Shown here piece by piece: positions 36,049 through 41,251 of a DNA stretch of 43,832 nt; positions within the stretch are counted from its first letter, which is position 1, and each line of letters opens with the position of its first letter. The stretch spans positions 74,851 to 118,682 of the forward strand of contig JAPLXS010000006.1 in the NCBI GenBank assembly GCA_026395965.1, written 5' to 3'. This DNA is from Candidatus Nomurabacteria bacterium (GTDB lineage: Bacteria; Patescibacteriota; Minisyncoccia; Phycocordibacterales; UBA9973). Under the pieces are notes generated by a model that was not told the origin of the DNA, did not search any database, and was given only the letters and a program-made list of their open reading frames with translations. The translations under genes were made by a program, and so were the position numbers.

Positions 36049-36063
36049 TGAGTCAGATATTTT

Positions 36064-36080
36064 TAGACGTTGGACGTCTA
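36064..36080. repeat. REP-like palindrome copy 1
   Basis: TAGACGT-TGG-ACGTCTA, arms extended by ATATTTT/AAAATAT. Confidence 0.85.
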
Positions 36081-36091
36081 AAAATATTTTA

Positions 36092-39000
36092 TTACTGTGT
36101 GTTTACTATAATCAAAACTGGAAGATAGTCATCGTATTCATTATTGGCAACATCTTTTATATGAACTTTGATTCTATAATTTCCACTTTGCAATAATCCC
36201 CCGCTAGACAATATTCCATCCCAATTTTTAGAACAAACATTTGTTCCGTCTACACAAGTAGTTGAATTTGATTGAAACATTCTATACAAAGTAACATCAT
36301 TTTCTTTTTCTATCTTTAATGACATCCAATTAACATTTTTGTTTGAATTTAAAACAATATCAAGACTATTTATCAATGGGTTAATATTAATACTACCCTG
36401 TGAACCATTTAGAGTATAACTCGATATTACAGGCAAAGTACTATCAGGAACAACAGGATCTGGAGTTGGTATAGGATTTGGAGAAATTGTAACTGTTGCA
36501 ATATATGACAATGTTGAACCATCTTCTGCCTTCACTATATATGTTACAGGATTTGTAAAATCTTGAGCAGTTAAACTAGTAGGCAAAACTGAGGACTTAT
36601 CTGCTGTTAAAATAGTAGGCACAAGAGCACTTATTGCAGCTCCATAAGGTACCGTCAATTTTACTGTGTGCATATTGTTATCTACAATACCGATTACACT
36701 TGGTGTTATACTATTAAAATCAAAAGAAGTTATAGATTTTAAAGAACTTAAAACTGGAGTCGGAGTTGGTGTTGGTGTTGGTGTTTGAACAGCAATAGAA
36801 TCATATATAGGAAATGGTTGTAGTACCATACTACTACCACCAGTCCTACCCATAGGAGATAAGTATGGTACATTTTCCCAAAGACCGGATGGAAAGGTTG
36901 TAAAATTATTAAATGAACCATCCCAACCAACCCACATATTGTTGTTTATATTTAGGACATCGGTATGCCCAGTTATTACAACACCCAAATCGTCGGTTAT
37001 AGTATAAACATATCCAGTAGTATCCCACTGAATAGCTACGTCATAAGTTTTTCCATTCATCATATTTTGTAGATTATATTCAAGACTAGACACAGACACA
37101 TCTGTTGTTTCAAATCCTTTTTGTGGATCATGACTGAAAACTCCTCTCTGCAAACACTGACTACAATAATACCCTCGCTGTGATTGAACTTTAAATTGCT
37201 CGCGTAAATAATTATTTACATAAGTATCTGTCCAATCATAAACATTTGAACCATTAAATGACCACACTTGCCAATCATTATTGTCACCGTTATTTATTCC
37301 AAATGACGATTTAGGTATATAAGTATAAGTAGATGGTATAACTGAAAATCTAAAAAGATTATCATTTTCTATTTTCGCAAAATCTCCAGTCTTGTCATCT
37401 GCAGAAAAAGAATATATATAATCACCTTGATCATAAGTATTATTTACAGTAAACAATTCTCCATTACTAAAATCTCCATCACTTAAAATACCAAAACCTT
37501 GAGATATCTTACTCATCACAGAATCTGCTAAATATATTCCTGTTGTTTTATCTTTAACATGAAGTTTTACATCTTGAGGAGAGTTATTATTTAAATCTGT
37601 ATAAATAACTTGAAAAATAAATGGGGTTAAATTTTTCCTACCACGATTTGTATCCAAGCCATCGAGCGCATTATTTCCAGAATTTGGAATAGAGAGTGTC
37701 GCTGTTGTAGAAACTACTGGAGTACGAGGTATAACTTCAACAACATTCACAGTGCGAGTTACATTTGATACATTATTTGCTGCATCGGTGGCAGTATAAG
37801 TAAGTAAATATGTACCAACAATAGAAGTATCTACAACACCTGTTTTCAAAACACTAATTACTCCATCTTTATTGTCTAGTGCAGTTGCACCTGCATCTAC
37901 ATATACCGAGCCTTTAAATACTGTTACAGTATTTTCTCCTACCAATGTAATGACGGGAGATATTATGTCCACAATTACAACAGGAACAACATTTATAGTA
38001 CGTATTGAAGTCGATATATTATTAGTAGAATCACTTGCAGTATAAGTAATAATATAAACTCCGGCACTTGAAGTATCCACAAAACCAGTTGATACAACAG
38101 AAATTACTCCATCTTTGTCATCTAAAGCTGTCGCTCCTGCATCTACATAAATAGAACCGATAGAAACTGTTACGATACTCTCTCCAAGAACAGTTATAAC
38201 TGGTGCGAGAATATCAGCTTTTATTGCCGTATCGTTTGATGAACTAGACCCACCCCCTCCTCCACTTACCCATCCGCTTGAGCTATTATTTACAGCCCCA
38301 CTTGAAACAACAGGATTTTTAACAGTACTGATTGGCTCTTCGTTATTAACCGAAGAATCATCAACTACAGAAATATCATTTGTGTCTACAACAGACACAT
38401 CACTTGATACTTTTTCATTAATAATATTAGGATCTAATGTTTCAGCTAAAATATCTCCATTTTTTATTGTTTGTTCTGTATCATTAAATATATTTTTATT
38501 ATCGTAAGACCCAGCTGCTGCAAGATTATTGTTTGCATTGTTTCCAAAAATATTAACTAAAGATTTAACTCCTCCTTTTACAGCATTAAAAGAAAAAGAC
38601 CCGATCTTGATTATGCTATTTACTACAAAATCTGCAGCACCGATTACAACCAAACTAGCTTTGTGAAATATGTTAATTTTCTGAGGTGAGATACATTTGT
38701 TATTTCCATCTTGGGTCTGATTTATAGCTAAATTTTCAAGAGAAGATTGTATATCCAAAACAATCTGATCTCCGCGGTATTTCAAATATACTTGAGAAAA
38801 ATCATGGCCATTACTTTTAATGCCTGTTAAATCTATATGAGTATTGGGTGTCATAATATTTTTAACACTACCCACAAGAGTAGCAATGACACTATCTGTA
38901 TCTGAAGTAAGGTATTTACCATCACCTGCTACTCTATCTGATGGAGTAGCTACACTGTATACACCGATAGATTCAACAGGAACTCCACCGTCTTTACCTG

Positions 39001-39403
39001 CAATTTTATCGTAGAAATTATTAACATAGAAATTGCCTTGCGAATGACCTACCAACAAGATTTTTTGAGTTCTTACTTGATTACTTGCATCATTGAGCAT
39101 GTCGACAAGATCAAAATCAGTCTTACTATTAAATAGCCCCTGTGCAATAGCATCTATTATATCCCCAGCACCACCAATATGAGTAGAATTGTAGATATAA
39201 TCTACGGTAACTTTTTCATTCTTATAATAACTTGGTAAAAGTTTTTTTAAATTTTCTTTATTTTCCTTTGCTCCAATATTGTCGGTAAAAATTCCATTTA
39301 CCGTAGCAATAGTGAACCCACTCTTAGAACAAACATCGCTAGCTAAAACATTTGAATACGATAACAATAATAGAACTAAAACAAATAATTTTAAATTCTT
39401 CAT
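36092..39403 (-). CDS. Large secreted/surface protein: N-terminal alpha/beta-hydrolase-like domain plus Ig-like repeats
   Basis: Signal peptide MKNLKLFVLVLLLLSYSNVLA; nucleophile elbow LLVGHSQGNFYVNNFYD; two DUF5011-like repeats (PVITVLGESIVTVSIGSIYVDAGATALDDKDGVISVV...); TPTPTPTPTP linker. Confidence 0.82.
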   Translation of the reverse strand: MKNLKLFVLVLLLLSYSNVLASDVCSKSGFTIATVNGIFTDNIGAKENKENLKKLLPSYYKNEKVTVDYIYNSTHIGGAGDIIDAIAQGLFNSKTDFDLVDMLNDASNQVRTQKILLVGHSQGNFYVNNFYDKIAGKDGGVPVESIGVYSVATPSDRVAGDGKYLTSDTDSVIATLVGSVKNIMTPNTHIDLTGIKSNGHDFSQVYLKYRGDQIVLDIQSSLENLAINQTQDGNNKCISPQKINIFHKASLVVIGAADFVVNSIIKIGSFSFNAVKGGVKSLVNIFGNNANNNLAAAGSYDNKNIFNDTEQTIKNGDILAETLDPNIINEKVSSDVSVVDTNDISVVDDSSVNNEEPISTVKNPVVSSGAVNNSSSGWVSGGGGGSSSSNDTAIKADILAPVITVLGESIVTVSIGSIYVDAGATALDDKDGVISVVSTGFVDTSSAGVYIITYTASDSTNNISTSIRTINVVPVVIVDIISPVITLVGENTVTVFKGSVYVDAGATALDNKDGVISVLKTGVVDTSIVGTYLLTYTATDAANNVSNVTRTVNVVEVIPRTPVVSTTATLSIPNSGNNALDGLDTNRGRKNLTPFIFQVIYTDLNNNSPQDVKLHVKDKTTGIYLADSVMSKISQGFGILSDGDFSNGELFTVNNTYDQGDYIYSFSADDKTGDFAKIENDNLFRFSVIPSTYTYIPKSSFGINNGDNNDWQVWSFNGSNVYDWTDTYVNNYLREQFKVQSQRGYYCSQCLQRGVFSHDPQKGFETTDVSVSSLEYNLQNMMNGKTYDVAIQWDTTGYVYTITDDLGVVITGHTDVLNINNNMWVGWDGSFNNFTTFPSGLWENVPYLSPMGRTGGSSMVLQPFPIYDSIAVQTPTPTPTPTPVLSSLKSITSFDFNSITPSVIGIVDNNMHTVKLTVPYGAAISALVPTILTADKSSVLPTSLTAQDFTNPVTYIVKAEDGSTLSYIATVTISPNPIPTPDPVVPDSTLPVISSYTLNGSQGSININPLINSLDIVLNSNKNVNWMSLKIEKENDVTLYRMFQSNSTTCVDGTNVCSKNWDGILSSGGLLQSGNYRIKVHIKDVANNEYDDYLPVLIIVNTQ

Positions 39404-40113: not shown

Positions 40114-40130
40114 TAGACGTCCAACGTCTA
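40114..40130. repeat. REP-like palindrome copy 2 (inverted: loop CCA)
   Basis: TAGACGT-CCA-ACGTCTA. Confidence 0.9.
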
Positions 40131-40143
40131 GCATTTTTCTTTC

Positions 40144-40160
40144 TAGACGTTGGACGTCTA
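40144..40160. repeat. REP-like palindrome copy 3
   Basis: TAGACGT-TGG-ACGTCTA, arms extended TTTC/GAAA. Confidence 0.9.
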
Positions 40161-40215
40161 GAAAATACAAAAATATCATATTTTTTATCCTTATAAAATA
40201 TAGATTAAAAATACT

Positions 40216-40232
40216 TAGACGTTGGACGTCTA
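40216..40232. repeat. REP-like palindrome copy 4
   Basis: TAGACGT-TGG-ACGTCTA, arms extended AAATACT/AGTATTT. Confidence 0.9.
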
Positions 40233-40300
40233 AGTATTTAATTTACGAAAACCCGACGTCTAAAAAATAAAAAATGTAACTTTTATTTTTATGGTTTTAT

Positions 40301-40966
40301 TTAGCTTAAATTAAAATCCTCCTCATCTATTGCTTTTTTACCTCTCTCTTCTCTAACCATATGAGATACTTTTAAACATTCACTTTTGAATATTTTATTA
40401 CTACCGTAAAATTCTAAAAGATTTATTGCTTCTTTTTTATTAACTATATTAAAATTTAAGGTGTCATACTCTTGGCAACTAGATAAAACTAGGTGCTTTT
40501 TTTCATTTGGAATATCATGGATTAAATAATTAGTATTTACATAAGGCCTTATTTTCAAAAAATAATCATTATCTTTTATTAATTTTGACTTAAATCTCCC
40601 CTGAAATAAAGCTCCATTCCTTTTGTGTATTTTATTAAAATATTTGGTATATCCTCCAAGTAAACGTTTCATAAATTCTGATATACCACCATCTTCTTCC
40701 TGTTTTAATATAAAATGAAAATGATTAGGATTTATAGAAAAACAAACTATTGAAATTAAGGTTTTATCTTCATTTTTTAAACGCTGTATATCTGTCTTGT
40801 TTTTTAAACTTGCTTCAATACTACCTATGGGAACAATAGTATTGAATTCCTTTATACTTAAAACAAAACGATCTAAATCGTCCTTGTTCATAAAAATATC
40901 TCTTTTATCAACCCCTCTGTTATAAATGTGATAATACTCACTAGTAAGAAGTGGATCTTTTCTCAT
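40301..40966 (-). mobile_element. REP-associated tyrosine transposase (RAYT, Y1 / IS200-IS605-like HUH superfamily)
   Basis: YYHIYNRGVDKRDIF, INPNHFHFILKQ (HUH-like HFH), FMKRLLGGYTKYFNKIHKRNGALFQGRFKSKLIKDNDYFL. Confidence 0.92.
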
Positions 40967-41098
40967 AAAAATAAAAAACCCACAAAAAATACATAAATAT
41001 TTTGCGAGTAAATAATAATATTAATTTTTCATGACTTATATTATATAACTTATTTATAATTAAACAAAAAAAATCTGTGGACAACATTAGGTTTATTT

Positions 41099-41115
41099 TA
41101 GACGTTGGACGTCTA
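41099..41115. repeat. REP-like palindrome copy 5
   Basis: TAGACGT-TGG-ACGTCTA. Confidence 0.9.
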
Positions 41116-41169
41116 TTTAATACACTAAATGTCAAAAAATAACCATTATAAAACATGGGTTATTTTTAA

Positions 41170-41186
41170 TAGACGTTGGACGTCTA
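41170..41186. repeat. REP-like palindrome copy 6
   Basis: TAGACGT-TGG-ACGTCTA, arms extended TTTAA/TTAAA. Confidence 0.9.
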
Positions 41187-41251
41187 TTAAACTACTACTA
41201 AAATAAAAACCCACTTTAAAAGCAGGTTTTGTTTTTTTATTTTGATTGAGG

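Follow-up and report, generated by a model that had tools for sequence, protein, structure and literature searches.

A RAYT-type transposase gene amid its own dispersed family of untagged palindromes in a small patescibacterial genome

The window analysed here (the whole stretch of 43,832 nucleotides from a Candidatus Nomurabacteria bacterium) contains an open reading frame that is a RAYT-type transposase flanked by its own dispersed family of REP palindromes, as class 2 of the TnpAY1 transposases requires. We consider it quite probable that gene and palindromes make up a REPtron, i.e. one RAYT-type HUH transposase gene that lies amid, and probably acts on, an untagged palindrome family of its own. 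The best reading of the host system is a divergent, untagged RAYT/REPIN lineage in which the RAYT would cleave and mobilise the palindromes. RAYT/REP systems have previously been described mainly from larger genomes and with GTAG-footed palindromes; we find them to be common in streamlined patescibacterial genomes of 0.4-1.0 Mb, and in the host case the foot is absent. A literature search combining RAYT/REP with Patescibacteria or CPR found no earlier report within the library covered.

The transposase gene (40301..40966, minus strand) encodes a Y1/HUH protein of 221 aa that matched Pfam Y1_Tnp with 31.3 bits (cutoff 23). The HUH motif reads NHFH (residues 80-83) and is followed by FQG (residues 120-122) and by the catalytic tyrosine, Y141, within YVNTN. 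H81, H83, Y141 and N145 were invariant in an alignment of 42 relatives, so the protein has the HUH and Y---N motifs of TnpAY1 class 2; the proline of the catalytic NP is a tyrosine in the host protein, and NP is kept in deeper relatives. The transposase had one match in its own genome, i.e. it is single copy, as class 2 enzymes are. The sole NCBIfam match was REP_Tyr_transpos (NF047646), with 29 bits and thus under the curated cutoff of 80; the same model was matched by 41 of the 42 aligned transposase sequences. When an AlphaFold2 model of the transposase (mean pLDDT 83) was compared with the PDB, the best fold was 4ER8, the E. coli RAYT with a REP hairpin (E 1.3e-4, probability 1.00, a modest TM of 0.41/0.52), which gives the host protein a RAYT fold. 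Searches of PDB sequences with the single protein and with the 42-member profile returned nothing usable, BLASTP detected no similarity between the transposase and E. coli RayT, and neither PHROGs nor Rfam gave a match. Could the gene be the remnant of an ordinary IS200/IS605 element with decayed ends? Such an element would have the common HUH fold family, and the TnpA proteins of IS608 and ISDra2 do rank next after 4ER8, but the single copy, the Y---N (not Y---Q) arrangement of YVNTN, the dispersed palindromes, the lack of a tnpB-like neighbour among the ORFs scanned and the lack of any NCBIfam IS200 match in the 42 relatives make this origin hardly credible. The preliminary description would have been refuted by a grouping of the ORF with ordinary IS200/IS605 TnpA; the copy number, the motifs Y---N and FQG, the only NCBIfam match and the top-ranking fold all speak against such a grouping.

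The palindrome TAGACGTTGGACGTCTA is present in the window in six exact 17-bp copies. The first (36064..36080, plus strand) lies 12 bp past the stop of a gene for a 1103-aa protein and lies in a perfect hairpin with 14-bp arms (36057-36087). Next to the transposase gene, a copy on the minus strand (40114..40130), with opposite loop orientation, is 30 bp from a plus-strand copy at 40144..40160 (perfect hairpin 40140-40164, 11-bp arms), and a further plus-strand copy lies at 40216..40232 (perfect hairpin 40209-40239, 14-bp arms). Two plus-strand copies are found at 41099..41115, upstream of the RAYT gene, and at 41170..41186 (perfect hairpin 41165-41191, 12-bp arms). Sequence matching also located the degenerate half-site GACGTCTA at 40255..40262 (plus strand). 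The positions of the six copies and of the half-site had been given in the preliminary description; it erred in assigning opposite orientations to the copies at 40144 and 40216, whose loops are oriented alike, whereas those of 40114 and 40144 are opposed. The 1103-aa protein itself (36092-39403, minus strand) looks secreted and contains two bacterial surface Ig-like domains (Pfam PF16403).

The palindrome had been supposed to exceed its background frequency, and this is the case. With up to three mismatches, the window gave 12 strand-matches (six sites on two strands) versus 0.04 expected from dinucleotide shuffles. In the host genome (698,616 bp in 12 contigs, 97% complete), a pattern search found the exact palindrome 12 times and its reversed-pattern control not once, and about 20 sites had at most two mismatches. 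In a de novo hairpin census covering 414 kb of the host genome, the TAGACGT palindrome was the largest family, and mononucleotide-shuffled sequence yielded zero repeated families. The flanks of 20 copies had no tetranucleotide in common, and a canonical GTAG/GGAG tag was found at the foot of none of them, as the preliminary description had noted. Among 61 genomes, the 15-mer of this REP was held only by the host and by G012, whose RAYT is 74% identical. The next largest family in the census was a second REP, AGGGGT-TGG-ACCCCT, with 9 copies in the host genome (contig C7: 29814, 121532, 122995, 123015, 216690 and 216719; C8: 142289 and 142314; C3: 27033); it has no cognate RAYT there and matches the RAYT-flanking REP of the relative G016. 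In addition, a trmD-looking ORF of the host genome (L021, C7:64808) contains, in frame, the REP-like pair TAGAGGTTGGACCTCTA.

A TIRYT within a TIRtron (PMC3733652; subclass 2.1 of Quentin et al.) would be another way to read such a transposase with its repeats. The NHFH and FQG core motifs of the host protein resemble those of subclass 2.1, and some TIRs are self-complementary (PMC3733652). However, Pfam did not find a C-terminal HTH, the GGGGWSAS motif is absent, the flanking repeats being TAGACGT palindromes, and these repeats are short hairpins, dispersed in multiple copies and forming paired elements, of a kind that subclass 2.1 is reported to be without. We therefore regard a TIRYT as improbable and a RAYT as the better assignment.

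The REPs are in part arranged as composite REPIN-like elements (REP-linker-REP). One spans 40144..40232 (plus strand), with TTATAAAAT at 40191-40199 and a spacing of 72 bp, and could be aligned with its counterparts in two further genomes; the other spans 41099..41186 (plus strand), with TTATAAAACATGG at 41146-41158 and a spacing of 71 bp. The layout, of about 89 bp, consists of a REP, about 34 nt, a TTATAAAATAAGG-like motif, about 14 nt and a second REP. Paired REPs in the host, in G012 and in G023 are mostly 70-72 bp apart, with one pair at 62 (range 62-72), and twelve paired elements of these three genomes align end to end on one asymmetric TTATAAAATAAGG linker; they are thus dispersed pairs of REPs around a short spacer, as REPINs are. 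Over the fixed orientation of the linker, both loop directions occur. G023 has two nearly identical elements that are distinguished by flipped REPs (GGTGT-TCG versus GGTGT-CGA), and REPs of the GGGGT-CGG type are also found on the common linker. REPs that are flipped or swapped on one linker mean that the chassis is conserved while the REPs on it change in sequence and orientation, and how REPs spread and change thereby becomes directly testable. We also considered TTATAAAATAAGG as a stand-alone mobile motif and rejected it, because most genomes contain it and it is also found where there is no REP pair, so that it is nonspecific alone.

The 7-bp core, described initially as strictly conserved, is present as a minimum; it is not the limit of the arms, as several copies have perfect arms of 11-17 bp. 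The complementary flanks past the core are site-specific (10 bp at C7:120174, 9 bp at C8:148068, 7 bp both at 40216 and at 36064 of the window). The mean arm extension was 2.7, compared to 0.62 when flanks were re-paired among copies (0 of 20,000 permutations, p<5e-5), and it was significant in several other hairpin families, if not in every family. Template switching is documented to homogenise arms and to invert spacers (PMC8604942), and it would be the simplest account of the extended arms together with the flipped loops. Alternatively, the extended arms could reflect selection on RNA hairpins. Intrinsic terminators were considered for the extended copies by gpmI and a PhoH-like gene and rejected, because no T-run follows the hairpins. 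At the same two genes, an empty-site comparison gave no result, the intergenic flanks not being alignable among relatives.

Relatives of the RAYT make up an order-wide group and were found in 39 of the 61 genomes (about 0.4-1.0 Mb each), often several and up to 7 per genome, among them Nomurabacteria, Zambryskibacteria, Taylorbacteria and other Patescibacteria MAGs, and in a tree that included three outside proteins the patescibacterial transposases formed one group. One hairpin core recurred, in two or more copies, at 25 of 30 RAYT loci versus 4 of 85 control loci (dprA, gpmI, PhoH-like, uvrB and rsmA). In G017, each of the seven RAYT genes has its own palindrome family, in six cases on both sides. 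Across about 40 RAYTs, the hairpins lie at most loci at about -25 to -45 from the start or at -16 to +22 around the stop, and those inside the gene at +175 to +206 or +450 to +470. The host gene is without the near -40 and stop-codon hairpins of its relatives, its hairpins are located further out and its in-gene position has decayed; in hairpin placement, the RAYT gene of the window is a derived case. The difference between REP arms correlated with RAYT divergence (Mantel r 0.64, p 1e-4, 32 loci). Transposases and their hairpins thus appear to change together, because many sister pairs exist in the relatives and the hairpin is a different one in each pair. The identity of the REP is not always tied to that of the RAYT, since the RAYT closest to that of the host (G023, 79%) has a different REP core. 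With relatives in so many genomes and palindromes that co-diversify, the early suggestion that the REP/RAYT lineage of this reduced genome is a distinct one holds. The pairs of transposase and hairpin, which number dozens and diverge by degrees, also constitute a natural series for the evolution of HUH hairpin specificity.

The location of the copies bears on a further question: do the palindromes serve the host as regulatory hairpins (terminators or stabilisers of mRNA 3' ends), with a transposase that is a neighbour by coincidence or exploits them? In the host genome, 26 of 29 REP copies lie between genes (p 6e-20) and 10 of these 26 within 30 nt past a stop (p 0.002), and many RAYT genes have hairpins near both start and stop, as one would expect of such hairpins. 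Against this, the palindrome family changes with the RAYT, RAYTs that share one genome each have a separate family, the control gene loci are mostly devoid of repeated hairpins, and G017 has copies in frame within coding genes. We judge a purely regulatory origin to be unlikely and prefer a palindrome family that belongs to the RAYT.

The in-frame REPs of G017 are found in uvrB, rsmA, a tyrosine recombinase, a murC-like gene and others (names read from translations). In dprA of this genome (L100/L110), an exact 23-bp REP occupies a conserved stretch, and the length is unchanged compared to 18 readable orthologues; this single instance, with a REP of another RAYT family than that of the host, is a hint of overwriting, not insertion. 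We therefore put forward, as a speculative idea that is rather unlikely to prove correct, that hairpins partly spread and change when existing sequence is rewritten into a hairpin: after a RAYT nick at a hairpin, synthesis with template switching would overwrite similar sequence, lengthen the arms and flip the loops. In UvrB, the region between RPVS and YPGQI is a hot-spot of differing in-frame inserts (G017 L159, orthologues L195-L216), and a second insert site is common to G012 and G008.

For the host system as a whole, we envisage that the RAYT would bind the hairpin on single-stranded (lagging-strand) DNA, nick beside it through Tyr141 and move or copy the paired element. Hairpins, once placed, may then be reshaped by replication template switching, with the local flank lengthening and perfecting the arms and the loop being flipped, and turnover of REP identity would go along with RAYT specificity.

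Finally, we compared the host system with known ones. Like E. coli rayT and the Pseudomonas REPINs, it has a single-copy HUH Y1 enzyme with its own flanking palindrome family, the palindromes are intergenic, dispersed and paired, and the best fold is 4ER8; it differs from them in REPs that have no GTAG/GGAG foot, short perfect 7-bp arms and a 3-nt loop, and in pairing its REPs at 72 bp into composite elements whose AT-rich linker motif is conserved. While non-IS tnpAY1 genes were reported to be found preferentially in large genomes (Quentin et al. 2018, PMC6006769, the main text of which does not name Patescibacteria or CPR), here up to 7 RAYTs are present in a 0.69-Mb genome. The same study described untagged hairpins in subclasses 2.6 and 3 and in-gene REPs in subclass 2.4, and found no REPs for 2.1. 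The patescibacterial systems resemble subclass 2.4 in REPs within the transposase gene that leave the frame intact, and subclasses 2.6 and 3 in hairpins without GT[AG]G, but they have other key motifs (FQG, YVNTN/YIHLNP), another host group and three stereotyped hairpin positions. In-gene REPs and TIRtrons were also described in PMC3733652; with TIRYT/TIRtron the systems have in common a related core and some flanking repeats that are self-complementary and multicopy, whereas here an HTH tail was not found, GGGGWSAS is absent and the short hairpins coevolve with the enzyme. The palindromes of G017, in frame within genes such as uvrB, recall the Rickettsia palindromic elements (described in PMC3733652); in contrast to those, a cognate transposase is present here, and the copies of the host genome are nearly all intergenic.
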